DNA of 64,000 nt from Parelaphostrongylus tenuis (Eukaryota > Nematoda > Chromadorea > Rhabditida > Metastrongylidae): NCBI GenBank assembly GCA_019055375.1, contig JAHQIW010003656.1, positions 1 through 64,000 of the forward strand, in the 5' to 3' direction. Position 1 is the stretch's first letter; every line of letters begins with the position of its first letter. A program made the position numbers and the translations under genes. The notes beneath the pieces are model-generated. The model saw nothing but the letters and a program-made list of their open reading frames with translations, did no database searches and had not been told where the DNA came from. Positions 3,090 through 62,490 of this stretch are shown here, one piece after another.

Positions 3090-4338
3090 AGAACTATAAA
3101 ATAAATAGCAAATAATACGTCATAAGCAACAAAATATAAAACGAGAAATGCGCATTGAAGCGATGTATAACATAATCACATTTATTAAAAATATAATGCA
3201 ATATCAAATGGTGCATATCGACAATGCAAGAAACGCAATTCCTTTTCCAACAACCTATTAGTAAAATTTATTGAATAGAACGCAGTGCTTAAGATAGTGG
3301 CTGACTTTTCAATTGTATCGCCTTTGCAGAGCCTCGAACGGTTAAATTGATTAGAAGTTCTTTCAGTCAAACATCTTCCTAACTTCAGCAGTAACGTGGT
3401 AAACAAATTTTGGTATGCAGAGCAAAGAGCTCCTTTTTTTTTACACTAACTATTTTGTTCTTTTCAAGACTTCCTACTATAATTAGAGACATACTGCACG
3501 TCTTTTGCATAGGGAAGGAGTTCGCCTAGTTCACTTTCTTGAAAAATGGAAAGTCCGCTTTCACGGATTATGCGAGCCTGGCACATTTCCATTCGTCGTT
3601 TCTTCTCGCGATTGTCGTCGACGGTGGTGGTTTGATTCGGACACGGCGGCTGACGCGAGTTTCACACCGTGTTCTGTAAAATATCTGCAGCTGTGAGCAG
3701 AGCTGATTTATTCTTTTTGCAAACACGTCAACCCGAAGTAAAGGTAATCGTACTTGGGAAGTGGTGGATCGTAGAGACCGCTCTACAGTTCATTTCGTAC
3801 ATCTGTCGTCTGATCTTCTTACTACATGATCGGCCCATCAGTGTTCACTATCAATGCATGCTTTTCTGTGTCGCGAAGATGTGGTTCGGAGATTTGAGCT
3901 GCGCAGGTAGCTAAGTGTTGTAAGTGCCAAGTGATTTCACAAGACATCGCTCAAGAGCTCTCTGAGTCGTTCGCAGTAGTCTTGATGCGGTCCATATATT
4001 AGCTCACGAGAACGCCAAAAGGACTGTTGAATTAAAAATGTTAGCGCGTAAATTTGGATCTGTTATTTGGTCCGTAGCTTCTTTGAGAGGCCCGAATGTG
4101 GCCCACGCTGCTCTCCTTATTCTATCAATTTCCTCCTTCATCTTGTTCTCCATATTTCCGTTCTCCGTTCTCTCTTGTTTGGCCAGAGAAAATCAGCTCA
4201 AGGTATGGCGTGAGGGGAATCTAGCCAGAATGCCTCAAAAAAGCATTCTCTGTTGTTGTTTCGGATTTCTGTGTAAGAATGATGACTTCTACTCTAAAAT
4301 CACCTACGTTGTGTTTTTGTGCCTCATATCTGCATAAT
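3090..4338. other. No gene recognised
   Basis: Open frames on both strands (for example the 99-codon frame at 4038-4337) have no recognisable domain and no supporting splice-site chain. I see no RNA gene. Left as unassigned intergenic sequence. Confidence 0.45.
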
Positions 4339-4580
4339 GAGCGCATGTGGCGCAGTGGTTAGAGGTGCTTTATGTCGCATACATGTCGATAGTTCACTCT
4401 CGCACTCATGGCTCACCAAACCATCCATCCCTTCGCGATCGGTAAATTGGTACCAGACGGGTCTCAGGCTTGTCTGGGAGGATAAGCAGCATTGACTTGG
4501 TTCAGCGAAAGGCCACCGCGAGTCATTGTAAAGGTCAGATATGCATTCAATCACCTCGAACGAATTCCAAATTGAATGTA
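4339..4580 (+). repeat. tRNA-derived SINE, family A, 3' truncated
   Basis: It begins GAGCGCATGTGGCGCAGTGG, which contains a pol III A box (TGGCGCAGTGG). The B-box area is mutated. The body follows (CCATCCATCCC, TTGGTACCAGAC, GTCTGGGAGGATAAGCAGC, CCGCGAGTCATTGTAAAGG, ATGCATTCAATCACCTC). The 3' end of the full-length family (GCGCATCCCCCAGGGATTGATCAACG plus a TTTATCC tail) is missing, and a Penelope-like remnant follows directly. Confidence 0.8.
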
Positions 4581-6838: not shown

Positions 6839-7265
6839 GGGCCAATGAGTGTTTTTATCAATGTGACTAAGCATCTAAGAGAGACACGTTTTCTCACAAA
6901 CATTGTTTATTGAACGTTCAATCGAAAACTGTTTGGCTACAACTTGATATCGTAACCGCGATGTCATCAGTAACAACGAAGATAATTGTAGAGGACGACT
7001 ACCAATTTCAACTTTATTTTTTTATAACGTTGTTGATTGTGACGATATGCTATCACCATTCTGACTTCAAGTATTTAAGTCTACTATGCTGTTATTGTAC
7101 AATAATGAACTTCTCATTTCAAACTTACTGAGCAATTCATAAAGTATCTACGTATTATAACTTTATTTCGAGTGTTTTCATCAAGACCACGCTCAGATTG
7201 CAATATATCTCGTAATAATTATTTGAGCCAACATGTCATGTGATCTGATAATGGGCACTTGTACA

Positions 7266-7309
7266 GCCCGATACACGATTTTCGACCTTACAATCTCCTC
7301 AGTTACGCA
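7266..7309 (-). ncRNA. Hammerhead-ribozyme-like motif, degenerate
   Basis: The minus strand shows a core that has drifted (ACTGAGGA instead of CTGACGA), a stem II (GATTGTAAGGTC), GAAAA, and a 3' half closing in GTATCGGGC. Stem I is broken. It mirrors the better copy at 7541-7583. Confidence 0.5.
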
Positions 7310-7540
7310 GGAACCGTTCGTTTTTTAGTTTTTAGCCAGTCTTCTCGGGAGCCCCTACTCTGCGTATAAAGAGCTAAGTGACGACGAACGATTTACACTG
7401 TAAGTCAAGTGAAATTATCACCAAATATACAGTGTTGTACACTCGATTGCTCTTTTGACTCGTATTTTTACGATTTTTATACCCTTAATTCTCCCAGGCT
7501 TCCGGGAGGATTGGCTAAAGACTAAAAGACGTAGGGTTCT

Positions 7541-7583
7541 GCCCGACTGACGAGACTGTAAAGTCAAAACACGTGTATCGGGC
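7541..7583 (+). ncRNA. Hammerhead-ribozyme-like motif, type I, one core change
   Basis: Forty-three bases fit the type I hammerhead. Stem I is GCCCGA with TCGGGC, the core is CTGACGA, stem II is GACT-GTAA-AGTC, stem III is the palindrome ACACGTGT and the cleavage position follows A. The conserved GAAA reads AAAA, a change of a core G, so this copy is probably inactive. The structure is read directly; activity is inference. Confidence 0.75.
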
Positions 7584-8235
7584 TATACAAACAGCCCATT
7601 AACAGATCACATGATATGTTAGCTCTAACAATAATTGAGATATCTACGTATTTATTAAAAGACGCTTTTGAATGTCTAAAACCTTACATTACAACTTGCA
7701 TCTCAGTGATCAAAGGCCTATTGCGATAACTTTCGCGTCAATAAATGAGAAAACTCAACGCATCTTTGACTACTGCAATACTTCAGTAATTCTAATAATT
7801 TCCTCCCACATTTGTACTTGTTGTAATAATACAAGCAATAGCCGCTTATAGCGCAGTGGTGTTAGATGTGCTTAGCTTCACGCCATAAGGTCCGAAGTGA
7901 TTAGAAAACGTTATATCTTCCTTGTTATTCCAAACATCCCTTGTTAGAAACATCTATTTGAAAAGATTTTATATCTTCGTCTTTCATAAAAGACATTAAC
8001 AAGCCATGAGTAGACCGAGAAGTATAAAATCGGGGAGGGAAGATCGATAGCATTAGTGAATGTAAAAGGGTAAATTGGAATGTTTCACTGTCATGAAAAG
8101 AGCTTACGAAACACTTTTTGTTGATATAACAATAGTGTGACTGAATTGATAACCGAGAAACACATTGTGCGCATTTAAAAGTAAAAGGGAGATTGTACAG
8201 TCGTTTGAACTGGCTAGGCACAACAGCAACCTAAA

Positions 8236-12252: not shown

Positions 12253-15200
12253 ATGTCGCTTGTTCAAGTACAACGCTCACCCTCACCGTCGATCGTCGAC
12301 GAAAGTGAGATTCTGGTCAGTTTAGAGCCTACCGTTCGTTTTTCTTTTCCTTTCCATATCTAATCACTTCATTTCACTTAATAAAGTAAACCTTAGAGAA
12401 TTCAGATGGTGAGCAAAAATTCGACCTCACACGGGAGTTGAACCCGTGTTTCCCCCTATAGCGGGGGGGGGGGGGGGGCGTGCTATCGCTACACCAGAGG
12501 CACATTTGCGCCACCACTCATTTAGAAAAGCAGTAAAACACAAGAAATTCTGAGTAGTACGTATCACAATGGCTGTCAGCTTAACTGGGTTTTCACACAG
12601 CGAAACAGCATACCCGACGAGACCTGTTGAAGGTTGGTGGCTGGCTGCTATCATGAAGACATTGAAGAATGAGTGGTGGCTCAAATGTGCCTCGGTGGTG
12701 TAGTGGTAGCACGCATTATCGCTATGTGGGAAATGCGGGTTCAACTCCCGTCTAAGGCTGAATTTTTGCTCACTACGCCATACCCTAAAGTATATTTGAA
12801 ACACAATCACATTGTGAAAGAAGCAGTAAGACATAAACAATCCTGAGCATGTTCCATTCACTTTGAGATTCAAGTGGTAATTAATTATCTTTTTACTCAA
12901 TCATGAGAACGCATGTGGTGCATTGGTCAGAGGAGCTTTGCGATACACACGTGGCCGATTGATCGATGGTCGATGGTTCGATCCCCGCGCTCACGGCTCA
13001 TCAAGCCTTCCATCCCTTTGGGGGTGGTGAATCGGTACCAGACTTGTCGTGGAGGATACCAGTACTGAGTTCATGCATCCGAGGGCCACTGCGAGTCATT
13101 TCAAAGGCCCAATATGGATTTAATCACCTCTAAGGATGTTATAATAAGGAATCGATTGAATGGCGCATCCCTCACAAACTGATCAATGCTGTTAGCTTCA
13201 TCCTTTTGTCCTTTAACCTTGCGTACTAGATGAGTAAATTTATAGTTTGTAATTTATTCACTTATGAGTTGTGGAGACCAGAATGATGTGCTTTTCACGC
13301 CTCAATTTTTCTTTTTGTACACGAGTTATTCAAGGAGTTTGATGATTCGCGATGTTCCTCCCGAAATCGAAGCATTTCCGAGTGTTATTTTGCTGTTAGA
13401 GGAGCTGCTGTTATTCTACCACACGGGTAGGCCTCTATCGATATACTCATACCTCGATATTCAATATACATGTTCATATATATTTTGATTTGATTTGTTT
13501 TCTAACGTCGGTTTATTGCAGTCTTATAAGAGCCTCTTGTAATGTTCATTTCACCCAGCACCAGACCCGATATCGTCGTCTTTGTCATTTCCAGTGAAAC
13601 ATCTCGATGCGAGTGAAAAAACATATCAAAACCGTGTTAAAACATAGACGATCAAAGGACGAGTACTGACCAGCTTTGTAAGCTAGAGGAGGTCTATGGA
13701 GTATTTCGAAAAAGACGGGACAATGTCCTAATCTTCTGAATGTGAGGACGTCCTGATTTCTTTGGAATATCTGGTGGACCTTCTCCAGCTTACAGAGATG
13801 TTTGATGGACGTCTTTGGACAATCTAAGTCTTGATGAGGCTTTGCAATCCGTTCCTTCAGTCGCTCTGAGGTCGTTTTGTGGCGACGATAACCACGATGT
13901 CGGGTTCGGTGCTAGTAAGATGGAAAGTATCGTGTGACAGTCTGAATTAAATATCGCGGTTGTCTCTCATGATTGTTGCTCAAAAAGCTTAGTTTATTTT
14001 AACAATTCAAAAGTTCGACTTTCTATAAACCTCGGCATAATTAGATGTTGTATGAAATCGAGAAAACTTATCTTGATTAGCTGACGCGAGGTTGGTGAAT
14101 TAGTCGTAGAAATTCGGCTGACGTTTCGGCGACCCGCCTTTTTTCAGAGCCTGAGTGTACGTAGTATTACTATTTGAATGATTCGGATGGTCTTTTTTTA
14201 TATGCTGCCTAGGTCAGGTTAGAAGATCAAACGAAGAAAAGGCGCGAGATCTCGCGTGATGGTGACGCTCTCGTCCTTCCGGTTCATTTTGGGATTTTGG
14301 GCGTTTATCTAAAATGCCTCAAGAGTTTTTCGCGAGGATGTTTTCGATTCCTGCGCTAGGATTGTGACAGTAACATCGAAATCCTTGTTGTTGTGATTTT
14401 GTGCCCTATGTGAACCTCAAAATTTGGTTTATCTATTTTAGATTTACTATCTAGGTTTTCTTTTATGCGGATGAAAAGTGGTCCACCCGTTTCGCCTATA
14501 TATTTTTCCCCGCATGTTTTACATATTAGTAAATAAATTGCGCCCGATCTCATACAATCCCCCTTTACTAACATGTAAAACATGCGGGGAAGAATATACA
14601 GGCGAAACGGGTAGACCACTTTTCATCCGCATAAAAGAACATCGGGATAGTAAATCTAAAATGGATAAAATCAAATCTTTAAAGTCACATAGGGTATATA
14701 AACGCAACAACAAGGATTTTGATGTGACTGTCACAATCCTAGCGTAGGAATCAAAAACATCCACGCGAAAAACTCTTGAGGCATTTTAGATAAACGCCCA
14801 AAATCCCGAAAGGAACCGGAAGGACGAGAGCGTCACCATCACGCGAGATCTCGCGCCTTTTCTTCGTTTGATCTTCTAGCTTGACCTAAGCAGCATATAA
14901 ATAAGACCATCCAATCATTCAAATAGACTAATACTACGTACACCCAGGCTCTGAAAAAGGCGGGTCGCCGAAACGTCAGCCGAATTTCTACGACTAATTT
15001 ACCAACCTCACGTCAGCTAATCAAGATAATAATTTGGAGTGCTGTGCAAAAACGTTTGCGTCAGCCGGGATTTGAACCCAGATCTTACTCTTTCCGGGAG
15101 CGAATGCTAACCGTTGCACCACTGACGCTCGTTTTTTTTTGTGGGTTCAATGCCGATAGTGGCTGCCCCGCCAGACCGTCGACGGTTGGCTGTTGGCAGA

Positions 15201-23569: not shown

Positions 23570-24463
<894 letters not shown>

Positions 24464-27519: not shown

Positions 27520-29485
27520 GTTTCTTGGGAACAGCATTTCTACCGGTAAAAGCCGATATCAGTGGTAATGTCGCGAAGGTGCGAACCCGCTATGAGAAGG
27601 ATAAAATAGGTTGTGAAGTATTTTTTTTCAGATTCTCAATCTTCTAATATAGAGTCAGGTGACACAAAAGATCTGAGCATTTTCAGGACAACATTTTTTG
27701 CAAGATCTAATTGATAGCGATCTGAAGGATCACGGTGGCGGACTTGGTATTGCTACAGAAGGTCTTTTGTGGCTGAAAAGGCTAGACATATTACTTGTTC
27801 TCCTGCACTTCTACGCTTAATTGATTATCTTCTTCATTTTTTTACGGTTACTTCTAAGAGTGAATACTTTTAGAGGGCTTGAATTCATGTTGGAAATGCT
27901 CACTCTCATGGTGCAAGAGTATAATTCAAGCATCGACAAGAGTAAAACGGATAATCTTGTTGGTGTTATTAGGACGGCATACGAGCGGTCTCTCAAACGA
28001 CATCATGGATTCATGTCGAAGCAATTATTCAAGTTAAGTACGATCTATACTATACTTAGTATGAAAGCCTAGCTATAATACTGAAACCTTCTTAATGAAT
28101 AGCAAATTTATATTTTTTGCTGATTATCCGGAAGCACGAAGTTGATTAAGTAAGCGTAAGTAGTTGACTAAGCTTAGCTTAGTTATCAAGCCAACGTTTC
28201 GACGTGTTCGCCTTCTTTAAGGTCCAAGATTTGAGTCGATTGTCCACCGTCGTTCGTTCTCATTGTGGATCTTCGTCTCTCTTGTCTTTCGGGGCGAATC
28301 TTACATGGAGCATAGATTGAATGAAGAACATTATAAGAACATGGCTAAGCTGTGCTCTACAGAAGATTCGACTCAAACGACAACGAAGACGAAGATTCAC
28401 AACTAAAACGAATAACGAGGTACAATAGACTCGAATCATCGAATCATCGGTTTTGAAGAAGACCAATACGTCGAAACGCTTCTCAAGTAAATTTGTTTTT
28501 CATCACTACAATTTGGTGGATTTTTCTTACGCCTTTCAGAGGTGTGTTATGGCACCGCGAGTGTTAAACGTATATTTAAGTTTCCTCGCAAGCCCCATTA
28601 GTAGCATATGCTTTCCGTACATTCTTGCCCCTTCTATAGAGAATCGAAGCCATAAAAGTCACACTCTGCGAAGATAAAAAGATCACTCAAAGTGGCACTC
28701 TTCTAGAGTGATTGGTTGTCGATTGTCGTTTGCTTGGCTTACGGCTATTACGCCAGTATATGCACGTGTATATACATTTATATGCACATACATATACATG
28801 TATATACGCATTTATGTATATATGTATATGTGTACATAAATAAATACGCATATATATATATACATATATATATATATGTACACACGTGTATATATATATA
28901 TATATATATATACGTATATATATGTATATATATGTATATCCATGCTACACATACATGTTAATACATATGTTAATGATAATATACACACATCAACGCGTTC
29001 AACTGACTATTTTGAGACCTCGCTCAGAAGTTCTAATTAATTTAAAATTCCAACTCGTTCAAAAACCTAATTCCTAAGCGAGATCTCAAAAAAGTCTATT
29101 GAAAGTGTTTTTATCAGTACGCCAGCGCCGCCGACACTTACGATCGCATGTTTCAAGAAACGGTTCTTCTGTGGTGTCATAGATGGCGTAAAATTCGTGC
29201 TGCTGACTTAATCAACAAACTATATTGTTGATTGCTACTACCGAAGTTACATCACGTTGGTTTTGAAAATAATAAATCTATTTTATTGATGGTACTCTGT
29301 TTCAGCTTGTCATTCATGCTGCCCCTTATCGAAGGACCATACTAAAGGCTGTTGCCCTAGGAAAGGATGGCCTCGATGATTTGTGTATTCAACATATTGC
29401 TAGTCATTTGGATAATTTTCGTCTTAACGTTAGCGTACTCGTGGATTACTATATATCAAAGAATTTAGATACTTCTGCATCATAA
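27520..29485 (+). CDS. Glycolipid transfer protein (GLTP) domain protein, 5' end missing
   Basis: GLTP-fold proteins carry single glycosphingolipids or ceramide-1-phosphate between membranes in the cytosol. Four exons: 27520-27609, 27687-27780, 27874 to about 28032 and 29306-29485. Motifs in order: [20 protein letters not shown] (the lipid headgroup DxxGN signature), [13 protein letters not shown] (headgroup Trp and Lys), [17 protein letters not shown] (the conserved His of the family), then [12 protein letters not shown] and a C-terminal helix to SKNLDTSAS. DxxGN-K and WLKR suggest the GLTP or FAPP2 type, not the ACD11 type; this is inference. Anomalies: the exon 2 donor would be GC (AAAG/GCTAGA), and the exon 3 to exon 4 join is one base out of phase, leaving either a non-canonical splice or a 1-nt sequence error. 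The N-terminal exon is not identified. Confidence 0.88.
28746..28965. repeat. TA/TATG-type microsatellite in GLTP intron
   Basis: About 220 bp of ATAC, ATGT and TATA repeats (long TATATATATA runs, TATACATATA). Apparent open frames rich in Tyr and Ile here arise from the repeat only. Confidence 0.9.
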
Positions 29486-32985: not shown

Positions 32986-35253
32986 TCAGTCTTTCCACCG
33001 ATGAGTACAATCAACATTCGCACATCGATAGAATATCGTCATTGGTTCGTCGGCTGATCGTGTCTGTATCTGCATGAAATAGGCTCGATCGTGTGAACAC
33101 TTCGGACAACGTTCGTTCGTCACCTGAATTTGAAAGATCGACTTTTTGTAAACCTCAGCAGCATGAGTGAATAGAAAAAATGTACAAACTGCCCTTTTCC
33201 TTGAATAAAATTTGCATGAGGTTGGTATTTTCTCCCATCAAATTCGACGGCTAACGTCCCGCCGATTTCGCCTTCGTCGGAGCCTGGGTGGTATTATCGT
33301 ACCATATCTGATATTTGATTAGCATAAATTAAAGTAAAATTAAAGTATTTATAATCAGATATGGTATAATATGAGCGCATGTGGCGCAGTGGTTAGAGGT
33401 GCCCTGCGTCGCACACGAAGTCAATGGTTCGATCTCGCGCTTATGGCTCACCAAGCCATCCATCCCTCCGGGCTCGGTAAATTGGTACCAGACAGGTTTC
33501 AGACTTGTCTGGGAGGATAAGCAGCACTGACTCGGTTCAGCGGTAAGCCACCGCGAGTCATTGTAAAGGCCAGATATGCATTCAGTCACCTCAAACGAAG
33601 TTAAAAATTGAAGTCGAATGCATGGCGCATCCCCCAGGGATTGATCAACGCCGAGAGCTTTATCCTTTATCCTTTATCCTTTATGGTATAATATATTACA
33701 TTCAGGCTCTGCCGAAAGCGAAATTGTCGAAATATTGGCTAACAATCTGAGGTGAAGAGTACCAACCTCGTACAAGCTTTATTCAAGAAAAAAAGAACGG
33801 TTTGTACAATTCACTTGTCTCCTGAATGTTCGTCAACAAATTATGGTAGTAACTCAGTTACAGACTACATTTATGCAAGCAGGCTTCTCGGAATTCTTGA
33901 CCTTGAGACATCTTGCCAGTAACCTACGTTTATACCCAGTATGAATGACTTCATCTTTCGTTGGTATATTCTCCAGACACAAGTGACATATAGGTGTTAG
34001 TGATAAACGATAAAAAAAAAACGTGGTTATTCTGTGCAGAATACTTTAATCTCGATATTCTCATAAATAAATAGCCTTAGAGCACCATGAAACACATAAT
34101 GAACATGCCTAAGTATCAAATCTTTCCCTTGCTATTATCCGTAATCAATAACTTTCTTTACCTACCATCCTCCAAATCGCGTGTAATAGCTTGAATGCTT
34201 CAACGAGGCAAAACATATTTTTTTGAAAAGCGTTTAGGAAGTCTGATAGCGCTTCCGTATTTTCCTGTACTCTACTAGAAATCTAGAAGCCAAAGTACAA
34301 GTAGAGATTTTCTCCAGGAAACGTTAAAAATTGGGATGTCGAACATCCGTGACTCTAGTATCCATCGAAATCTGTAAGAAAAAGTGAGAACATCCACATC
34401 TAGTTGACGAGTGAGGTTTCTAAATTTTGAGCTACCCCAGTCACCAAGACGAGCTCTGGTACCTGCACATCACGTCCACCCATACTTCTGCTGGACTTTT
34501 GAGTTACCTCGACCATTATGACAAGTCCTGCCTGCTGATTGCGTTTATTACAGTCAAGTCTGTGGTCTCCAACTTGAAACTCCTCAGAATCCATTTTTCT
34601 GCGTGTCGACCGGGAATATCATAGACCAGTCATGGAAGAAACTGACTGATATTCCCTGATCTAAGCAATAATATGTGGGGCAGAACAAGTTCGTCACTGA
34701 ATTCACCTCAGTAACACTTTGTATTAACATTTGTGCTGAATGTTTGAAAAGAGCTGGTGATGACGCAACCTATGGAAAAGTAACGTGGTCTTTCTACAGA
34801 AAATGTATGAAGGACGGGATGCATTCTCTAAACTACTCGACTACTGTACTGTACAACGATTCACGTGTCATACGGCTTCATACTTCTATCCTTATCCAAA
34901 TTTCCTGTTCGCTATTTCGTTAGATGCTTTCAAATAAACTAACTTAAATCAGTATATGGCCTTTGAGACTTTGAGTTGAGAACAAATCTGCCAAAGGTCA
35001 CACCTGAGCATTATCCCACGCCGACGGGCCACCGAGTACTTCTTCGAGATCTTTCAGCTTTGGGTAGATTCGACTGCTCACCTGAACTAATTGGCATTCG
35101 TAAATCACTATACACAGCTTCTATGTGTAACATTTGGCTGACCTTCTTCGTTACCGGGCAAACATATGGACACGAAGGACAGGAGAATTGCATAGATATG
35201 TCACCTTCCTCGATCTGCAGCAGTGAACCACAAAACGGACAAAAAACCAGCAT
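32986..35253 (-). CDS. polr3k: RNA polymerase III subunit RPC10/RPC11 (POLR3K)
   Basis: This small pol III subunit is needed for termination and for RNA cleavage at the 3' end, and acts in the nucleus. Three exons join in phase: 35253-35143, 35081-35004 and 33123-32986, giving 108 residues, the same as human as I recall. The N-terminal zinc ribbon has CPFC and CPSC pairs (MLVFCPFCGS, FSCPSCPYVC). The linker is IYPKLKDLEEVLGGPSAWDN. The C-terminal TFIIS-like ribbon has CPKC and CANVDC pairs and the catalytic hairpin TRSADEPMT (RSADE). The stop follows THRWKD. CTTCTCAG ends 3 nt before the ATG. CISD3 ends 262 bp upstream on the same strand, so the pair could be an operon with trans-splicing of this gene. 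Its 1.9-kb second intron carries a nested SINE-in-palindrome. Confidence 0.97.
33249..33284 (-). ncRNA. Hammerhead-like motif, degenerate
   Basis: The minus strand reads GGCTCCGACGAAGGCG, AAAT, CGGCGGGACGTTAGCC. Stem I (GGCT with AGCC) is intact. The core is CCGACGA for CTGACGA and GGGAC for GAAAC, so it is not expected to cleave. Confidence 0.5.
33373..33682 (+). mobile_element. Full-length tRNA-derived SINE (family A) with 12-bp target-site duplication
   Basis: This is the reference copy. It is flanked by exact ATGGTATAATAT at 33361-33372 and 33683-33694. The head GAGCGCATGTGGCGCAGTGG has a consensus A box; GGTTCGATCTCGCGC is the B box. The roughly 190-bp body has GTACCAGACAGG, GTCTGGGAGGATAAGCAGC and CGCGAGTCATTGTAAAGG. 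The 3' end is GCGCATCCCCCAGGGATTG, ATCAACGCCGAGAGC, then three TTTATCC units. The tail is a short tandem repeat, not poly(A). It lies in POLR3K intron 2. Confidence 0.93.
33705..33740 (+). ncRNA. Hammerhead-like motif, degenerate
   Basis: This partner of 33249-33284 reads GGCT, CTGCCGA (for CTGACGA), AAGCGAAATTGTC, GAAAT, ATT, GGCT. Stem I can form only with wobble pairs. It is a degraded copy. Confidence 0.45.
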
Positions 35254-38276: not shown

Positions 38277-38539
38277 ATCTTCTCACTATCTGAAAATAAA
38301 CGAAACGAGAACGATACTGGTAATTAGTTCAAATACCCAAGTTTTTGGAAATCCCCCCCCCCCAAGATCAATAATGTATGTAAACCCTAAGGATTTAACC
38401 TGCTTAGTCAACACAAGATTGGCAGTATCAGTGATAGTAATAGTGATAGAGTGGTGGCTGCTGTTGTGGTGATGAAGGCGAAATCGCCGTTACGGCACCC
38501 ATCGGATTACAATAACAACAACAAACTATCAACACCAAT

Positions 38540-38885
38540 TTTCATTATTATTTGAGTCAACTTGTCATGTGATCTGGTAAGGGCTCTTGTACCGCCTGAT
38601 ACACGTGTTTCGTCCTTACAGACTCGTCAGTCGGGCAGAACCCGTCGTCTTTCGATCTTTTTATAGTCAGGTCTCGGGAGCTCTACTCCTTTACAGAGAG
38701 TCATCGAAGACGAACGTTTTAAACTCTATGTCAAGTGAAATTTTCACCAAACAGAGTGTATGAGCACTAGATTGCTCGTTGGCTGGTATTTCTATCATAT
38801 TATACCTTTATTTCGAGTGCTTTACTGAAAGTTGGCTCAACTAATAATGAAAGGATCTATTGAAATTTGAGCGTGGTCTTGATAG
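38540..38885. repeat. Hammerhead-bearing element, family H1, copy 2
   Basis: It begins ATTATTTGAGTCAACTTGTC and continues ATGTGATCTGGTAAGGGC. It then has the hammerhead arm and the ATGTCAAGTGAAATTTTCACC and TTGCTCGTTGGCTGG spacer blocks, and ends near GTTGGCTCAACTAATAATG. Only one hammerhead arm is present; the right arm keeps only the outer repeat. Confidence 0.65.
38594..38636 (-). ncRNA. Hammerhead ribozyme motif, type I, near-perfect
   Basis: The 43-nt minus-strand sequence has GCCCGA, CTGACGA, stem II GTCT-GTAA-GGAC, GAAA, the palindromic stem III ACACGTGT and TCAGGC. Stem I has one mismatch; all core positions match the consensus. It may be active. It belongs to the family best represented at 50309-50351. 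Confidence 0.8.
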
Positions 38886-38994
38886 AGCAGTCGAAATAAA
38901 GGTATATTCACAACACACTACTACGAACGTCGCGACGGCTAAATCCCCTACACTAATCACATGCAGTGTCTGATTGGAACTCGTGATTCGCCAA

Positions 38995-42400: not shown

Positions 42401-44502
42401 AACACTTATACAGTGCAAGACACGTGTTCTGGCCTTCCAGCGTCGACAGTCGAACGGTGCCACTAGCCCTACATAGAGGAATCGACGACGGACTTTTTAC
42501 GCTCGACATACGGTGAAGCAATCACCATGATGTTCTTCCATAGTGTTCGATTATCGATTGAATGCGTATGGCTGTTACGTGGCATAAGTAACAATCAGTA
42601 CAATTGACTATTTTGATACCTCGCTCGAGGACAATTCAATCTAGCAGTGTGATTTAGGCCTTTGATGAGGTGTCTTATGGACACTTATACAGTGCCCACG
42701 TAACAGCCATGCGCATGAATTCGACAATCGAGCACTCTGAAACAACATCACGGTGATTGTTTCACAGTACGTTGAGTGTAAAAAGTTTGTCGTCGCAACT
42801 TCTATGTAGAGGTAGATCCGCGAGAAACTGACTGAACGAAAAGGCATCGTGCAACTGACGAGGGTGGTAGGTCGAACCACATATCTTGCACTGTATGAGT
42901 GCCCATAACAGACCTTATCATTTGACATGTAAAAGCGCTTACCCACGATCATTCTATGTCAGATTGCTGTTTGATTCTGAGCTTTATAATTAGTTTGTTG
43001 ACAGCACCGATAGGGTGAAGCATGAGTGAGAAAGATACAAAGGGACGGCCTCGGTGATGTAGCGGATAACACGTGCGCCCTGGAAAAGGTAATCGTAGGT
43101 TTGGAGCCGACTCAACTGAGTGTGAGTTTGACTCACACCTCAGTATTGTTTTGGTTGTAAATCACATCTGATCCTCTCACGAAGACGAGTATTCACTGCA
43201 TTAGAAATTGAATAATTGTGTTTCTGAAAATACAACTCATGCAGACTCACTGGATCGGAAGGTTGACTCTAGAAGAGGAATATGAAATGCAGCGAAAGTG
43301 GCGATTGGATGACGATAAGCTCACTTTTATTGTTCTGTCCAGAACGATGTCGGATGGCGGATGTTCTGAAGTTTGTTTCACCCTAACGTAATAACATGTA
43401 CTTCTGTTGCCATTAATTCGAGCATATCGAAATTTATATCTGCATATATATATATATACATATATACGCATATACATGTATATACGTACATGCGTGTGCA
43501 TATATACACATATATAAGCTTTGGCCTTAGAACAATAAACACCAAATTTGATAACCAGAAATAGTTAGGATTCCATGATTTCAGTGTCGTTCAATTGCGC
43601 ATTTTCTTGAGAACATTTTCATACACAGCTTGCTTATACTTGTTTTGAGTTGGAGCTGTCGTGGGTACAAATTCGCTTGCTACTTTGCACGAATGGCGCT
43701 CAGGGGGAAATGCTAGTGAAGTGGCGCACAAGATTAATGGAGCTTCCTGTGGACGGCCCGAGCGCGACTGATCTTTCATACTACTCTTTCCAGTTTTGAA
43801 GTTCACGAACTACTTCATAGCCGTTCTTTCTGCAACCGTATCATCTCTCCAAGCTCCATTATACTTTCGCGCCGCTTAACAAATATTTCCATCTGGGCGC
43901 CATTAGTGCAAGTAGCAAGCGAATTGTTTCCACGACAGCTCCATCTCAAAGCAGGTATAGGCGAGTTGACCAAAATGTCCGCAAGAAAATGCGCACTTTA
44001 AGACGTTCAAAATCATGCGGTTTTGATCTTTGGTAGTTAATGAATTTGGTGTTTACTGCTCTAGAGCCATAACTTATGAAACGGCATAATATGTATGTAA
44101 ACACAGATACATATATGCATGTATATGTACGCATGTACAAAAGTATATATGTATAGGTAGAGAGCATGATCGGTGATGTGAATCTCTTCGTGTCGAGTGA
44201 TCGTCATTCTGGAGAATTAGAAGTTATGATTGCTGAACGAGCCGCTCGTTGCAGTGGAGCTGCCACAGAGGCTGTGACGCTTATGATCTCCTATGCAATG
44301 AAAGAGCTCCAAATGAAACATTTTTTCGTAAAAATCACTGATGATAATACGGCCAGCTTGCATTTGTTTGAACACAAATTGAATTTCAAACGGGTTTTCT
44401 CATAGTGAGATTTTCGGAGAATTCACTTTGGAATTAGCTCCTTCAGAGGCGGGGCAATTCAGGGAATGTGGTGGAGCCAAGGTAGTTCAATATAGGATGT
44501 GA
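39467..44502 (+). CDS. nat9: N-acetyltransferase 9 (GNAT family), frame disrupted
   Basis: NAT9 is a GNAT-fold acetyltransferase linked to microtubule stability; its acetyl acceptor is not firmly known to me. Exons: 39467-39579, 43245-43370 and 44157-44502. Landmarks: NTKIIGEKVILIPYEEAHV and YHEWMKDDETRRLTGSE; then LTLEEEYEMQRKW and DKLTFIVLS; then MIGDVNLF, LEVMIAE (acetyl-CoA-binding strand), TEAVTLMISYAMK and SEIFGEFTLEL. Length is about 190 residues, near the family's 200. Anomalies: one base appears missing at 43261-43262, and one extra T lies in the run 44395-44398; each breaks the frame. The loop usually rich in Gly (RGKG in human) reads RCSGAATE. TTTCTTTCAG ends 2 nt before the ATG. 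Introns 1 (3.7 kb) and 2 are packed with repeats. Confidence 0.9.
39619..39967. repeat. Palindromic element, family Q, in NAT9 intron 1
   Basis: The left arm (ACCGGTTGACTTCCGTGG, ACGACTCCGCC, TTACTTTTCGTCGC) is mirrored by the right arm (GCAACGAAAAGTAGC, GGCGGAGTCG, CCACGGAAGTCAACCGGTTA). It begins about 40 bp after the NAT9 exon 1 donor, and accounts for the long open frames seen over that exon's flank on both strands. Confidence 0.7.
40000..40530. repeat. Cluster of tRNA-like repeat heads, both orientations
   Basis: There are two reversed heads (GGGAACTGAACCCGCGCG near 40022; GGCGGAATCGAACCCGTAT near 40140) and one forward head (TAGTGCAGTTGGTTAGCACG near 40413). The family body appears twice: GATATGCAAAACTTTGAAC and ATAGTTTTGCATACAATTCAAC, plus AGCGGTCAAATGAGAAGAATTC. 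It is a composite in NAT9 intron 1. Confidence 0.6.
41818..41935 (+). repeat. tRNA-like repeat, single head with body
   Basis: The head reads GTGCAACGGTTACCATACGC, TCCCGGAAAGAGTGAGATC and GCGTTCGAATCCCGGCTG (B box intact). The body is TTTTGCACAACACTCCACATT then ATTGGGTAG. The 5' acceptor strand is lost. It matches the forward head at 15245-15317 closely. Confidence 0.65.
42310..42960. repeat. Palindromic element with hammerhead motifs, family H2
   Basis: The left arm CCTTTCATGAGGTCTGTTATC, ACACTTATACAGTGCAAG is mirrored by the right arm CTTGCACTGTATGAGTGCCC and ATAACAGACCTTATCA. A second direct copy of the arm end (TTTGATGAGGTGTCTTATGG, ACACTTATACAGTGC) lies at 42660-42690. The interior shares CGGTGATTGTTTCACAG and ATGTAGAGGTAGATCC with 48330-48620. 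It is noncoding and lies in NAT9 intron 1. Confidence 0.65.
42849..42891 (+). ncRNA. Hammerhead-like motif, family H2
   Basis: It has GTGCAA and TTGCAC as a perfect 6-bp stem I, a CTGACGA core, stem II GGGTGGTAGGTC, GAAC (for GAAA) and a decayed stem III (CCACATAT). The 6-bp stem I and core are clear, but the second core strand is damaged. Confidence 0.6.
43048..43160 (+). repeat. tRNA-like repeat head
   Basis: GCCTCGGTGATGTAGCGGATA (A-box-like), CGTGCGCCCTGGAAAAGG and a weak B-box area (GGTTTGGAGCC) occur just upstream of NAT9 exon 2. It is diverged from the subfamily D head at 12692. Confidence 0.45.
43516..44083. mobile_element. Foldback mariner derivative filling NAT9 intron 2
   Basis: The arms mirror each other (AACAATAAACACCAAATTTG with CAAATTCATTAACTACC-type reverse, ending TTTGGTGTTTACTGC). 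Transposase remnants lie in one arm (GAATGGCGCTCAGGGGGAAAT, translating near EWRSGGNASEVAHKINGAS) and in reverse in the other. Simple TA-rich repeats flank both sides (43437-43515 and 44095-44155), fitting mariner preference for TA targets. It is related to 25256-25825. Confidence 0.7.
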
Positions 44503-48329: not shown

Positions 48330-48625
48330 TTATACTGTTCTTGAGCGAGGTCTCAAAATAGTCGATTGCAGTGTTTCCTACATATGCCCATGGAACAGTC
48401 AATGCGCCAAGCTATCGACAAGCATTCACTCTCGACACTTTGAATGAACGTCACTGTGATTGTTTCACTGCGCTTCGGGTGTAAAGTTTATCGCCGATTC
48501 CTCTATGTACGAGTAGATCCCCGAGAGGCTGACCGAACAAGAGACATTGTGCAACTGACGAGGCTGGAAGAGCGAGACATGTGTCCTGTACAGTATAAGT
48601 GTCTATAACAGATCTCTGAAAGGCG
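48330..48625. repeat. Hammerhead-bearing element, family H2, single arm
   Basis: It shares GAGCGAGGTCTCAAAATAGTC, GTGATTGTTTCACTG, CGCCGATTCCTCTATGTACG and ATCCCCGAGAGGCTGACCG with 42310-42960. It ends in a hammerhead arm followed by AGTATAAGTGTCTATAACAG. Confidence 0.65.
48549..48591 (+). ncRNA. Hammerhead ribozyme motif, family H2, one or two core changes
   Basis: It has GTGCAA, CTGACGA, stem II GGCTGGAAGAGC (GCT with AGC), GAGA (for GAAA), stem III ACATGTGT, C at the cleavage position, and CTGTAC. Stem I has one mismatch and one wobble. A reduced-activity or dead ribozyme. Confidence 0.7.
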
Positions 48626-49960
48626 CAAAATACATAATCAGATTAGAAAGGATTCTGTTTATCGCAAATCGCTTCGGTGAGATTTGAATACTATTGCTTG
48701 ATTGATTTTTTCAGACCGCTCAACATTTCCACGTCGAATGTAAGCTGTTGTGGTGATAACTTTTCTTATCAGATTTGCCACATGGGTTATCAGTCTAAGA
48801 CGGTACATAAGCGAGTTTTTTTATTTGTGAAGTCATTTCTCGGAGCAAAGGAGCTACAACTCTCGAAAATTTTCACCACTGCTCGCTGTATTCTTGTTTC
48901 CCATCATTTCCGTACAGAATGATCTTTTTCTGCAAAACTGGGTCAGTTTAAATCTCTTCTAAAGTTCTAACAAATGTATACGACTCACTTGTAGTGTTGA
49001 AAATGATGACTAAAATGAATGTACAAAGGCTCATAGTTGAGTATCGTCTTCATTTTCGGACTAAATTCCGTGAATCCATCGGTTGCTAAGGCAGCCATCG
49101 AGGCCACCGCACTCGTTTCCTCCGACTGTCCTCCGCATCCACCTCTTTCTGAGGCATTAAATATTAAACCTAAAAATCGACGGCTGCTATCTACTATATA
49201 TGCTAATATAGCTGCTATCTACTATATAAGCAATATGCTACTGCTATATATGCTAAAATGACAACTACTATCAGCTGCTACCGAACCGAGCCAAAATCTT
49301 TCCTGGAATTCCGAAATTTTTTGTATGCTGTAAATTTGCGAGACACTTTTTGATTCTTTATTTTTCTGTCGATATGTCTCATAAATCTTTATATTAATTT
49401 GTCTGTATCTTGAATTTCCAGAATTGGCACATCCACCAACTTCAGCTTCATACGAAATGCTCTCGAAATAGCAAATATTTATTTATTTCAATATGTAACC
49501 TTTCAGATGAAGCTCGAGATGTGTGTCAAAACGGCCAATACGTTGAAAATATAGAGAAATGCAGCTACAAAGCATCAAGACAGTGGAAACGCAGTGAACT
49601 GGGTTATCTTTTGAGGTAATAAAAACTAGTGGATATCTCGTTTGTTGTCTCATTCAAAAATCTTCACGATTGGATAAGCTCACAGTGTGGTTCATTGATT
49701 GGTCAGGTGTGATGTTAGCGATATATTCAATTCACAAACATGCAAAAAAACTTCCTAAGGACGAGTTCAGTGACTAGAAATCTCAGACAGTTGAGGTCCG
49801 CTTCAGTTCTAAGTGATGTGATCAATCATGGTTTTTGCATAAAGTATAAGCTTATGAAAAACTAGACTATACGCAGCATACTGTAGAGCACTTCCGATGT
49901 CGACAACGATGTGTCTTAGAGGTTTGTCACAGTGGAAAATGATAAATCATTATGCCTTAC
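48626..49960. other. Unassigned; possible short Cys-containing exons on + strand
   Basis: After TTTTTTCAG at 48714 a plus frame reads NISTSNVSCCGDNFSYQICH, and near 49505 another reads DEARDVCQNGQYVENIEKCS. Both are short, no phase chain joins them and no family is recognised. They could be exons of a secreted protein or chance frames. Confidence 0.25.
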
Positions 49961-50015
49961 AATCATTTTTGAGCCACGCATGTCAGTGGTCTGTCAAACA
50001 GGGCTGACTTGTAGA

Positions 50016-50058
50016 GCCCGATACAAGTGTTTCGATCTTGCGATCTCGTCAGTCGGGC
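50016..50058 (-). ncRNA. Hammerhead ribozyme motif, type I, minus-strand partner
   Basis: The 43 nt on the minus strand are GCCCGA, CTGACGA, GATC-GCAA-GATC, GAAA, stem III ACAC with TTGT (one mismatch), A, TCGGGC. The core and stems I and II are perfect. It mirrors 50309-50351. Confidence 0.85.
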
Positions 50059-50308
50059 AGATACCTTTCTTGTCTTTTGCTAATCTCTGCTGCAAGGCAT
50101 ATCGAAATTTGAGCTGTGGTCTTGAGAAAACACTCGAACCGAAAGTATGATATATTGAATATACTAGCCACGAGCAATCGAGTTTACAACACTCTATGTT
50201 TGGTGAGTATTTCACTGGACATAGAGTGTAAAACGTTCATCGTCGCTAACTCTTAGTGTGGGGACTGGAGCTCCCACAGAGATTAGCAAAAGACGAGAAA
50301 GGGTAACT

Positions 50309-50351
50309 GCCCGACTGACGAGATCGCAAGATCGAAACACGTGTATCGGGC
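50309..50351 (+). ncRNA. Hammerhead ribozyme, type I, full consensus match
   Basis: Stem I pairs 309-314 (GCCCGA) with 346-351 (TCGGGC), six perfect pairs. The core is CTGACGA at 315-321. Stem II GATC (322-325) pairs with GATC (330-333), with a GCAA tetraloop. GAAA is at 334-337. Stem III is the 8-nt palindrome ACACGTGT (337-344) with no loop, the minimal form known from retroelement hammerheads, which often cleave as dimers. Predicted cleavage is after A345 (GUA, a valid NUH triplet). All conserved core bases are present. Self-cleavage is predicted, not shown. Confidence 0.9.
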
Positions 50352-50580
50352 TCTATAAGTCAGCCCTGTTTGACAGACCACTGACATGCGTGGCTCAAAA
50401 ATGATTGCTAGGCATATTGAATTTGAGCTGTGGTCATAAGAAAACACTCGAACCGAAAGTTATGATAGATCATTAGTCAATTCCGAAGGTACAAGCCTTG
50501 GATTTGACTTTCACCAAACATTGTTCGCGGTGATTGAATGCTATTTGGCCTTTCCAATCTCGTGTTGATCTATCGATGAG

Positions 50581-50728
50581 TCAGGTCGGCGCTGCTATAG
50601 GCCTAGATAAGTATGATGCCAAGTCGCCGAAAGCGGAAGGATGGAAGGCTTGGTCAGCTTTGAGCAGGAATCGAATTATCGACCACGAGTGTGTCGCAGG
50701 GCACCACCTCTGGCTTGTTATGTCACAT
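50581..50728 (-). repeat. SINE family A, 5' portion
   Basis: The bases GAGTCAGGTCGGCGCTGC, GGATGGAAGGCTTGG, ATCGAATTATCGACCACGAG, GTCGCAGGGCACCACCTCTG are the inverted head and 5' body of SINE A. The 3' half is absent. Confidence 0.65.
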
Positions 50729-53119: not shown

Positions 53120-56100
53120 TCAAATTCGGGTGGTTTCATGCTCTTCCTCTTCCTTGCATTTGCGAGACGAAGACGGAAGAGTTCCTATATTGTGAAAAGG
53201 TTGGAAGTAAATCGACGCTTCAGACAACAAAACCAGTGATATAACTTGCTAAGGAAAATGCACTACTCAAGGAAATGTTAGTATTCCGTGGCCAATGTTG
53301 AAAGTAACTGAGTAAGGGACTACAGTTTTCATCCCTTCAGCAAAAGGCAAGTTACCATCAACTACTTTTCGAGAATACTTCTATAATCTACTAGACGCAT
53401 AAAAACTGCTAAGTAACAATAGATAACTAAACAAGTAAGTATACCTACCCTCTCCGCGTTGGTGTCTCCGACCATGGCTGAAAGGATCAACGTCACGATG
53501 CGGCGCTCCTCGCAGGTCAATACGCTCATTGAAATTTCTCAAAGGAGACCTTTCCTCCTCTTGGACATGGTTTCTAGAACCAGGCCGTACTGCTAAGCAA
53601 TTCTCTACATCTTCGTAGTTATTACTTGAGTCCTGAAAAGCGGAAACAAAATGACCTGTGAACAAATATTGGAGAGATTGATATCGTTTACACTTTCAGG
53701 TCCACGTGTACCAGATGGTACATGCTCCTCTTCGTGGTTTCGTCTTTGATCATAGCATAGCATAACATAATCATTCGATGGCTGAAAGAATTGCGGTTCT
53801 AATACTATGTTTGTATCTAGCAAAGATAATATAATAAGCTGCAGCGACTTTAGGCTTTTTTACTTGAGTGTTAATGAACTTCGGACTTGTTTGGTTGGCT
53901 TAAGACACAAGAGTCATATTTGTACCAAAGCGTACAGAACTGTAGAGAAATCGTGAAGTATCGAAGTACCGCAAGAAACCCAGAACTTTTCCGGCAGAAT
54001 GGATAAAACCTTAAGTAAATAAAAAAAAACAGCACGAGGCAATTTCTACCGTGGTCCCGAAAAGGTTAAACATACTTTATTCGCTTCACTGAACCTGTGA
54101 GTTGAGGACTCTTGAAGAAAGGTTTGAAATTATGTCCAAAATCATGCTTTTTGTTTCGACTGTTTTTTGAGGACCACACTTAACTTTCAATATGCTTGGT
54201 TATCAACTTTTGAGCCAGGCATGTGGGCTGCCATAATGACAACTTAAGAGCCCGATACACAAGTTTCGGCCTTGACAGCCCGTCGGTAGAACGATACCCT
54301 TCTCCTTACGCCAATCCTCTCGATGAAACCTAACCCCATACTAAGAGCAGCCGACAACGATCATTTTACACGTACCATTGAGTAAATATATCACTAAATG
54401 GCAGTGCTTTACACTTGACTGCTCTTGGCTGGTATTCTTGAATATGGCCGAAACATGTGTATTGGGATCTACAAATTGCCCTATTACAGTCCACATGCAT
54501 GCCTCAAAAAAGATTATTAGGCATATATTCAAAATTCAATTGAAAAAGGTCTGAAAAGCACACCACTTCATTTGCAAGTTCCCTTAGACGCTTCTTGAAC
54601 TGTAAGTTTGCTCGTTGACTTCTCTTCCGCTTGTTCTTTCGTTTCTCATAAGATTCGAACTTATTGATTAGCTCTGGGCAAAACTGAATGGAGCATGAAT
54701 ATATCAAGAAAAATGAATGCCATAGGATAATATCTATCTAAAAAACTGAACAGAAAAAATTTGCATAAAAATCGTGTGAACCAAAACAGTGTAAAATGTT
54801 ACGAGGAGTTTTCTCATCGGAAGTAAGATATCTTACCATTTGATCCTCGTCTACGAAATTCTCGGGGTCCCATGAGACATCGTATCCCACCCATTTCACG
54901 TGGTACAAGTATGTGCCGTCTGATTTTATCTTCGAAGAGAATTGATGTTAGCGATGTATAGGAGTTATGGTAGAAAAATTAACTACACAGTCGTCACAAT
55001 CAAACCGACATTCAATCAATGAAATTATGCTGAGCTAAGTTATCCAGAGTAAAAAGTCACTGATCAAATAGATACCTGTCTTTTGCTAGGCTCTAAACGT
55101 TGAGGCCTGGTACTGATGAGTGGCTTGCCATTGCACTCGGAGTAGCAGGATGGGCTTACTTGTTAAAGGCCATTTCGAACTGAATTCTATGACTCCCAGG
55201 CGCTGGATTGCAGGCTTTTGCCCAATTCGTCTCGCAGAAATATACGCCTGTCAATCGGCGTTGTAAAAGCAGGGAGTTCGCCTCCTGAATCTACCTGCGT
55301 CTCTAAGAAACTCACGGTCGTTTTTGGTTCGCGTTTAATTTCCTATGCAGCACCTAGATACGCATCAGGTGCCCTCGCGATTAAATGGGCAGGATCCCTC
55401 AGAAAGGAGGATCCGTGATAAAAAGAGCACGGGTGCAAAAGCCTTATACATCAGAATAAACCATCGGCAACGATATATGTTGGAAAAGTCAAGAAGGGTG
55501 ATCTGCTTTCTCATGGAAAGAGTGCTGCTATCTCGAGTTTTTTCACGACGATGATTTCAAGGTTTTTTTCTGATTAGAAGGTAACAAATGAAAAACCAAC
55601 CTCATTTGCTGGAGAAAAGTTTTCATGCAAGGGTTAGTATTATTCGATACCTTAGTTCTCTGGCTAAAGCCCCACCTGGCCGATATTCCAAAACACACTT
55701 TTATAACGCCGTAAATCCGCAGAAAACTATGCCTTAGACGCGCATATTTCCCGTCGAACAGAGCTTTTTTTAGACTATTAGTAATCATTCGATAACGCAA
55801 TTGTTTTTGATTCCAACGCTGCGCTTTTATCCTAAAAAGATCGTTTCTCTGAAACACAGCAAGTAAAACAAGTTGAAATCCCATCTGCGATCAAGGAGGT
55901 CTCTGACCATTTTAGGTGCGTGTGCGTGAGGCGTCGAAAAATCGGTGGTCATCCCCTCATCTATGCCTCACCAGCCGCAAGTAAATTGGCCAAAGATATC
56001 CTTGATAGCAAATCGGAATTCAACTTATTTTACATGCTGCGTTTAACTGAAACGGCTTTTTCAGGACATAAGCACAGCGCTGGAATCAGAAACGACTACG

Positions 56101-61262: not shown

Positions 61263-61369
61263 TCTATAAACGGACGACTATTTGACCACTTCAAATCAAA
61301 TGGGGATCGATAATGGCTCAAGAAATGGCAACGACAGCAAATTCGAATTGCGTTTGAGTTATCTGATAA

Positions 61370-61735
61370 TTATTATTTGAGTCAACATGTCATGTACTCT
61401 GTTAACGGGACCTTGTACAGCCCGATACACGATACACGTGTTTCGGCCTTGGCAGCTTCGTCAGTTGGGCAGGCCCTTTGTCTCTCTCTAGCCAATCCTC
61501 TCGGGCTCCTACCACCCCTATAGAGATAGGTGACGATGAACGATTTACACTGCCGTCAAGTGAAATAAATCAATAGATCGGCAATGTTTGATACTTGATT
61601 GCTCTTGGCTGGTACTTTTGAGATATTAAATCGTTTGTTTGAGTGTTCGATGCTCAAATAATAATTATGAGACTTATTTAACTTTGAGCGAGTCTGAAGA
61701 AAACACTCGAAACAAACGGTACGCATGAGATGGTT
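61370..61735. repeat. Hammerhead-bearing element, family H1, copy at 61.4 kb
   Basis: ATTATTTGAGTCAACATGTC at the left matches copies 1 and 2. The spacer has GACGATGAACGATTTACACTG and TTGCTCTTGGCTGGTA. The right end is GCTCAAATAATAATTATGAG. One hammerhead arm is present on the minus strand. Confidence 0.65.
61420..61470 (-). ncRNA. Hammerhead ribozyme motif, family H1, with small duplication
   Basis: The minus strand has GCCCAA, CTGACGA, stem II AGCTGCCAAGGCC, GAAAC, ACGTGT and A. The stem I strand GTATCG is duplicated (CGTGTATCGTGTATCGGGC), so the exact closing pairing is ambiguous. The core is intact. Confidence 0.7.
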
Positions 61736-61892
61736 TTGAAGAGAAAAATATTTGCCAACATATCCGCATAGTCAAAGTACACATCGTTTTGAACGCTGTT
61801 GAATCACACGACCATCATGTATTGTAATCAATCGATGGACTACCAAAGACAGATCACATTGAAAATCTGATAATGTCTGGTGAGTCACTTAT

Positions 61893-61941
61893 ACAGTACT
61901 GAACGGGTCCGTTTCGCCCTTATAGGCTCATCAGTAGCATA
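61893..61941 (-). ncRNA. Hammerhead ribozyme motif, family H3
   Basis: The minus strand reads GCTA, CTGATGA (the textbook core), stem II GCC-TATAAG-GGC, GAAA, stem III ACGG-AC-CCGT, T, then CAGTACTG. Stem I has one A-C mismatch next to the core. Core positions are all conserved. Confidence 0.75.
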
Positions 61942-62408
61942 GAGTCCCGTTCCAGACGACACCCTTCCCTTGGGGTACATCCCTTTTTATGAAGGAACCG
62001 TCGCCGAACAACAAGTCACCGCAAGCCGAGTCAGGTGATAAATCCCCGATAATGTATTGACCAGCAGTCGACCTAATGGCTGGTAAAATGGATAATATCT
62101 CTTTATTCGACTGCTTTTTAAAACCCCGCTCAAAAGCGACAAAAATCTGAAAATCACATGTTAGATAATTGATGTTATATTATGCACACAACTTATGTGA
62201 TTATCAGATATTGTTGTTTTTGAGTGAGTCCATATATAGACGGTCGAGAGTAAGGTAAGAATCATTCTACCAGCCGCAAACACTTGACTGTAGTCACTGC
62301 AATGTCGGGAAATTTTGTCACCTGACTTGCGGTAATTTTTGCTATTCGGCGCCGATTCCTTTACAAGTAGGTATGTATCCCCAACGGATCGGCTCCACAG
62401 AAAGACTC

Positions 62409-62459
62409 TGCGCTACGGATGAGCCTACAAGGGCCGAAACGGGCCCGTTTAGTAGTGCA
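62409..62459 (+). ncRNA. Hammerhead ribozyme motif, family H3
   Basis: It reads TGCGCTA, CGGATGA (one change from CTGATGA), stem II GCCTACAAGGGC, CGAAA, stem III ACGGGCCCGT, T, TAGTAGTGCA. Stem I pairs CTA with TAG and TGC with GCA across an internal loop, as in natural type I hammerheads. Confidence 0.7.
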
Positions 62460-62490
62460 TAAATGCCCTACCAGACCTCATAGTAGGCTT

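Follow-up and report, generated by a model that had tools for sequence, protein, structure and literature searches.

The question raised by this locus is what a hammerhead ribozyme with all of its conserved parts is doing in noncoding DNA of a nematode, and how it came to be there. The motif lies at 50309-50351 (+) in a 64,000-nucleotide stretch of the Parelaphostrongylus tenuis genome (contig JAHQIW010003656.1), hereafter the window. A first-pass annotation, made from the letters alone, had described it as a consensus-perfect hammerhead in a noncoding palindrome, had supposed a worm genome, rightly as the nematode source shows, and had considered it a possible active self-cleaving RNA of a form known from Penelope-like retroelements. 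Here, we argue that the ribozyme belongs to a non-coding, ~315-nt nematode retrozyme-like element that is copied in circular or multimeric form and owes its insertion to Penelope-like machinery, a reading to which we give a probability of roughly three in four. The architecture of the insertions, their ends, the flanking duplications, the crossed unit junctions and one Penelope-like element with a matching signature are present in the genome and carry this argument.

A Type I Hammerhead Motif

The 43 bases read, in order, GCCCGA - CTGACGA - GATC GCAA GATC - GAA - ACACGTGT - A - TCGGGC. Stem I (GCCCGA/TCGGGC) is paired in 6/6 positions and stem II (GATC-GCAA-GATC) in 4/4. Helix III, ACACGTGT, has 8 nt, is loopless and fully self-complementary, just as the first-pass annotation had it. 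H17 is A50345, after which cleavage is predicted. With the core CUGANGA, the GAA, A15.1-U16.1, the NUH triplet and the opening at stem I, the motif is a type I hammerhead. A strict descriptor agrees with the core, the 6-bp stem I, the 4-bp stem II and the GCAA loop previously noted: it finds two sites in the 64-kb window (50309-50351 on the + strand and 50052 on the - strand) and none on either strand of 300 simulated 64-kb windows with the same first-order composition, which rules out a chance origin of the motif. A conserved TNTACAAG-like stretch adjoins stem I, and a GYAA loop II occurs in 5 of 12 parsed copies.

The Rfam covariance search that had been proposed as a check gives a divided answer. 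On 81 bases, RF00163 (Hammerhead_1) matches over its full length (model positions 1-45 of 45; 27.7 bits, E 1.7e-5), but the score stays below the gathering score of 34 and longer stretches return nothing: the whole window at gathering scores yields three tRNAs and no hammerhead, and the 1-kb stretch around the motif yields no hammerhead up to E=10. These misses appear to be a matter of filtering. A loopless helix III of 8 nt is also part of the Rfam type I consensus. Scanning prokaryote genomes and viral contigs for the pattern gave no match, nor did a search of plasmids.

The 509-bp Insertion and Its 315-nt Unit

The motif is part of a 509-bp insertion (49953..50461) that consists of two head-to-head arms with their RNA 3' ends outward. 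The right arm (50091..50461, +) is ~1.2 units long, crosses a unit-unit junction near 50155 and carries the tailed end, which we call Y; the left arm (49953..50089, -) carries the tail-less end X and a second, inverted hammerhead (50016..50058, -), whose helix III, ACACTTGT, has one mismatch. The two outer ends are unequal, as Y extends ~47 nt beyond X, and this tail (X to Y; 50415..50461, +, from an alignment read by eye) is found at one outer end only. The insertion is flanked by target-site duplications, ATGATAAATCATTA on the left (49939..49952) and ATGATAGATCATTA on the right (50462..50475), which match at 13/14 positions, a level equalled by none of 300 random zone pairs. The unit's 3' end is present at 50091-50155 and again 315 nt later at 50406-50470, and one 315-nt unit as defined here spans 50156..50470 (+; GC 0.44). 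No reverse transcriptase (RT) or GIY-YIG frame was found in 49953-50461, where the longest listed stop-to-stop frames have 76 and 80 codons. The noncoding palindrome of the first-pass annotation is recovered, with arms at 49944-50089 and 50277-50423 that are 94% identical; new to that description are the second, inverted ribozyme, the family of repeats and the structure of the insertion.

Upstream of the ribozyme, inside the unit, lies a hairpin with TTTGGTGA..TTTCACT (50187-50231), with equivalents seen by eye in other copies. An Rfam match of the same bases to MIR6146 is sub-threshold (23.6 vs 59) and marks this hairpin. For the tail, a pol III B box (GGTTCGAGT in the 50-kb copy) was considered and dropped because other copies, by eye, read TTTCGAGT. 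A dispersed repeat (50517-50705, 33398-33602, 4385-4561, 17357-17424 and 24266-24338) has one copy that adjoins the ribozyme insertion; its 33-kb copy resembles, by eye, a tRNA-derived SINE with a TTTATCC tail.

Predicted Folding and Activity

Two 43-mers are predicted to fold into a double hammerhead at -36.9 kcal/mol, whereas the computed fold of a single 43-mer is not a hammerhead (-14.5 vs -10.9 for the hammerhead). Of 9 copies, 2 have the exact double hammerhead as their energy minimum, namely 50309-50351 and the + copy at 7 kb. The dimer energy itself is equalled by 6 of 300 shuffles and the energy gain over two monomers by 141 of 300; we dropped this gain as evidence, since it is no better than in shuffled sequence. 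For a transcript of the whole insertion, a hairpin of -321.8 kcal/mol is predicted in which 42 of the 43 ribozyme bases pair with the antisense arm, and the insertion is thus a product and not an obvious source of active ribozyme. The "active self-cleaving RNA" of the first-pass annotation would fit not this insertion but family members in tandem or circular form. We infer cleavage, perhaps by paired ribozymes.

Related Copies in the Window

BLAST of the locus against the window detects related repeats at 7, 38, 54 and 61 kb. A family covariance model built from five window ribozymes, 50309-50351 included, gives 11 matches at E<0.001 in the window, the building five among them, and two more near 0.1; a lone ribozyme is ruled out by these matches. 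Sorted by hand, the window ribozymes form three sub-families with different stems.

The closest parallel is the insertion at 7157..7640, with hammerheads at 7258-7316 (-) and 7533-7591 (+), a perfect 12-bp duplication (TATCTACGTATT at 7145-7156 and 7641-7652) and unequal X and Y ends as in the 50-kb copy. A test for different templates of its two arms, applied to this one locus only, gave 677 of 2000 bootstraps. The insertion at 38529..38909 has a hammerhead at 38586-38644 (-), a short right arm and a 10/11 duplication, and Rfam scores its 38594-38636 stretch at 27.0 bits. A decayed relative at 54130..54544 (ends uncertain) retains a hammerhead at 54243-54300 (-), half a motif at 54405-54475 (+, E 0.097) and an 11/12 duplication. 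At 61364..61722, the hammerhead (61412-61478, -) is accompanied by no flanking duplication above chance, and the same holds for the more distant copies at 42 and 62 kb, i.e., the sub-family B pair at 42405..42899 (42405-42463, -, and 42842-42899, +) and the sub-family C pair at 61888..62474 (61888-61948, -, and 62402-62474, +, E 0.07; helix III ACGGGCCCGT in the + copy). For the copy at 61906-61960, the Rfam type III model fits best (23.2 bits, E 0.0025). A single sub-family B hammerhead lies at 48541..48599 (+). By eye, six window arms run from one unit into the next.

Covariation and Conservation of the Ribozyme

When 12 copies are aligned in a fit to the structure model, and hence leaning towards that model, 20 two-sided cells are counted vs 8.0 in shuffles, a value reached by 0 of 500 shuffles. 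The covariation score is 0.420 vs at most 0.072 for slid structures, and the number of pairs with two-sided changes, five, is not above shuffles (4.4) in these 12 copies. In 12 hand-parsed copies, pairing is better within a copy's own stems than in permuted ones (0.0038 for stem I and 0.00055 for stem II). Five sequences aligned without structure show weak covariation, with 33 to 65 of 500 shuffles reaching each measure (33 for the score). If wobbles are allowed, 6 of 10 parseable copies have a fully self-complementary helix III, with three different sequences among them, ACACGTGT, ACATGTGT and ACGGGCCCGT.

Of the arms found genome-wide (see below), 67 were aligned to the unit at an identity of at least 85%, and 60 of these span the ribozyme. 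The core and both stems are intact in 35 of the 60, and helix III is ACACGTGT in 53. Stem II occurs in seven variants, each in one arm, only two of which keep four pairs; one is GACC/GGTC, where the four pairs are kept through changes on both sides. In a single arm, helix III is ACGCGCGT, also self-complementary, and the remaining variants break pairs. The ribozyme is the best conserved stretch of the unit: among 272 windows of 43 nt, its own stands at rank 8, and the three highest begin 1-3 nt further on. The probe used to select the loci covers the ribozyme stretch and favours it in locus choice, yet conservation is lower elsewhere in the probe (0.957 and 0.958 vs 0.975).

Copies in the Genome

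A 171-base probe was run against the genome assembly (481.5 Mb, 5105 contigs); 40 of its 1130 first-look candidates were scored, and 50 matches were listed. Among those listed, 40 matches, the window's own included, cover nearly the whole probe at 96% identity or more. The 38 other loci behind these 40 rows (one locus has two) form the sample and were mapped to a doubled 315-nt unit. By orientation, 26 loci are '-+', two '-++', six '-', three '+' and one '--'; hence 28 of 38 are two-armed and head-to-head with the RNA 3' ends outward, and 10 have one orientation only. No locus of the 38 contains converging arms within the 60-nt clustering rule, under which two pieces at distances of 390 nt (L010) and 346 nt (L022, 72% identity) count as separate.

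The unequal ends of the window copies recur in this sample. The 26 '-+' loci comprise 21 with one Y and one X, two with X and X, three unclassed and none with Y and Y, with class limits that were set after a first map had been seen. Mixed ends are thus present in 21 of 23 classifiable pairs, the longer end exceeding the other by ~50 nt (end-shuffling permutation p 8e-5). Direct repeats scoring at least 8 flank 19 of the 26 '-+' loci (one of low complexity) vs 2.3% of 2000 random zone pairs; seven pairs are without a clear duplication, and three of the remaining 12 loci have a duplication score of at least 7. Across the family, the short duplications measure 8-16 bp. In eleven loci where the repeats were placed, the ends fall near ..GATTGCAAGG(CATAT) and ..CGAAACGAAAG(TTATG).

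In 27 of the 38 loci, an arm crosses the unit-unit junction, as expected of tandem units, yet no arm has two full units and the longest reaches ~1.4. The inner arm ends are scattered: counted by hand, 6 of 67 lie within 8 nt of unit position 191, where ~3.6 are expected. cDNAs stopping at the ribozyme cut were therefore rejected. As the inner ends show no pile-up at the cleavage site, the templates generally did not end there, which leaves circles or uncut multimers.

In 20 genome stretches (194,936 bases; 16 of them are the rest of this contig), the covariance model gives 16 matches at E of 0.01 or below. Neighbours within 1 kb are '-+' in six cases, '--' in two and '+-' in one, a converging pair 921 nt apart in L053, outside the 38 loci. 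A rough extrapolation puts the family at tens of thousands of copies in the genome. Four of the 16 matches sit in a 600-bp stretch that is present twice with its ribozyme pair (L048:1801-2400 and L052:1600-2199, identical, 40 kb apart on the same contig), either through recent duplication or as an assembly artefact.

A Penelope-Like Element With the Same Insertion Layout

The window also contains an inverted pair formed by a decayed Penelope-like 3' end (14068..15029), with GIY-YIG-like frames at 14359-14622 (-) and 14475-14744 (+). It is a near-perfect ~960-bp palindrome with a hammerhead-like string on both arms. Pfam gives E 0.13 for one of the fragments and no match for the other, and searches of protein collections with them returned no match; their nature was clarified by a genome copy. 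With the 14475-14744 fragment as probe, the genome gave 8162 first-look candidates, of which 150 were scored and listed. Among these 150 places, open frames reach 902 aa; of the neighbours no more than 5 kb apart, 28 pairs diverge, none converge and one lies on a single strand.

One autonomous Penelope-like element, L067, of which the window pair is a relative, was read. It has a 902-aa open frame, of which 901 residues were scanned (RVT_1 3.4e-12, GIY-YIG 1e-5), and two head-to-head arms of 1225 nt that are 100% identical. L067 has the insertion layout of the unit, with inverted arms, one tail and a 13-bp duplication (CCATTTACATACG at 140-152 and 4235-4247, 13/13). Measured by hand, the extra stretch on one arm is 51-62 nt, as the duplication overlaps the arm, and the last 27 nt of the tail recur at the start of the ORF. 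Before the tail end, both arms contain GGCT CTGAAGAA GGCG GGT CGCC GAA ACGT C AGCC, which we propose, by eye, to be a minimal Penelope hammerhead; neither Rfam nor R1 recognised a ribozyme in L067. This string is different from and smaller than the hammerhead of the unit, and the element is otherwise unlike the unit in sequence.

Proposed Mechanism and Alternatives

In the proposed scheme, tandem transcripts would self-cleave at their hammerheads, probably through two ribozymes with a common helix III, and the monomers might be closed into circles by a host ligase. A circle or uncut multimer would then be copied by a Penelope-like RT/endonuclease that is primed on each of the two target strands, with one start at the tailed end Y and the other at X, and the two cDNAs could be joined in the middle to give the palindrome. 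The full version, in which nematode retrozyme circles are inserted by Penelope-like machinery with both target strands primed at two fixed internal starts ~50 nt apart, strikes us as an even bet.

The main alternative for the inversion is self-priming on an antisense template in place of priming from both strands. In a section of PMC3846280, this is proposed for rotifer Penelope elements with a head-to-head layout, but by itself it would leave the one-tailed pairs and the scattered inner ends unexplained, and we consider it doubtful, if worth keeping in mind. The insertions might also be truncated leftovers of autonomous Penelope-like elements, in which a terminal pLTR and its hammerhead were copied and no separate non-coding element exists. 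Their architecture does match that of L067, and Penelope copies are often 5'-truncated according to parts of the same paper (PMC3846280). However, the six window arms and the 27 of 38 loci that run from unit into unit argue for a non-coding repeat as the template, and the unit has no match to L067, making such an origin quite unlikely in our judgement.

A fold-back or MITE-like DNA transposon that carries the hammerhead by accident would be palindromic, non-coding and flanked by short duplications as well. Its ends would not be expected to differ as X and Y do in 21 of 23 pairs, nor would arm length and break point vary by copy and unit-unit junctions lie inside, and we regard this origin as highly improbable. 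Another reading concerns the ribozymes and not the insertions, namely that the hammerheads are relic passengers and inactive today. The weak single-molecule fold and the 25 non-intact arms among the 60 point this way, while arms that are 82-98% like the window's unit, the many exact duplications, the conservation of the ribozyme above the rest and the paired changes in single arms (stem II GACC/GGTC, helix III ACGCGCGT) point the other; we find inactivity unlikely. The retrozyme-like element inserted by Penelope-like machinery remains our preferred reading.

Relation to Known Elements

The unit shares much with metazoan non-LTR retrozymes, which passages of Cervera and de la Pena (2020; PMC7229834) describe as non-coding, 170-400 nt long, with a GC content below 45% and a type I hammerhead, in some with a weak or palindromic helix III, and with unit-unit junctions. 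At 315 nt, it also falls within a retrozyme size of ~150-450 nt non-coding with a hammerhead. In contrast to the direct tandem arrays described there (PMC7229834), the nematode copies are mostly head-to-head with one tail and duplications. Small circles are the form in which animal retrozymes are expressed, with Penelope-like elements as suspected helpers, according to portions of PMC7229834 and PMC7761336, the former calling autonomous Penelope-like elements "a strong candidate" for retrozyme mobilisation.

With Penelope-like elements, as characterised in parts of PMC3846280 and PMC11167929, the unit has in common inverted arms, 3' ends outward, one tail, short duplications and a hammerhead near the 3' end. 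Penelope copies are reported to have inverted pLTRs, an optional tail on one and short duplications (in a section of PMC3846280), and a Penelope-like protein from Anolis cleaves both strands of the target, extends them and begins internally on its RNA (in a portion of PMC11167929). Penelope-like elements encode RT/endonuclease, whereas the nematode unit lacks both and measures only ~315 nt. The retroelement and Penelope connection of the first-pass annotation, with a loopless helix III of the type thought to act as a dimer, is therefore supported, but the motif belongs to a non-coding 315-bp unit whose size is more like that of animal retrozymes than that of a coding Penelope element. The small Penelope hammerhead variants have a loopless or minimal helix III as well; the nematode motif differs from them in its 6-bp stem I, which likely has an internal loop, and in a GNRA-type loop II. 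These variants reportedly cleave as dimers, a result said to come from Lunse et al. in 2017. The nematode motif presumably stands closer to newt and retrozyme hammerheads than to them. Schistosome Sm-alpha and newt satellites likewise have a type I hammerhead in a repeat, and the newt one acts as a dimer, according to passages of PMC6155905; their arrangement and hosts are different.

Penelope-like elements are mentioned in a nematode in a passage of PMC7960049. In the open-licence literature on nematode hammerheads, retrozymes and Penelope, we found no report of a natural nematode retrozyme, nor an earlier description of nematode elements of this kind that are inserted in the Penelope manner. 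The mobilisation of animal retrozymes is given as an open question in part of PMC7229834, and a ribozyme-bearing non-coding element with a Penelope signature supports the suspected link between the two. As the non-coding element and an autonomous Penelope-like element with matching signature are present in one genome, mobilisation can be put to the test with RNA sequencing and in vitro insertion assays. That each pair has one tail as a rule constrains the insertion mechanism in a specific way; if true, two-strand priming at fixed starts would count as structural evidence, drawn from insertions in the genome, on the movement of animal retrozymes.

Other Features of the Window

Among the host genes, a 101-residue frame at 23573-23875 (-) encodes ATP synthase subunit c, with the best of 5119 relatives in Ancylostoma duodenale (91%), which points to a nematode host, perhaps a strongylid. 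Pfam identifies a dual-specificity phosphatase exon (19688-19981, +), a GNAT acetyltransferase exon (44157-44402, +) and two zinc-ribbon exons (32989-33237 and 35014-35253, -), which we take to be like RNA polymerase III subunit K. Judged from their repetitive translations, 28690-29074 and 43250-43590 are likely simple repeats.
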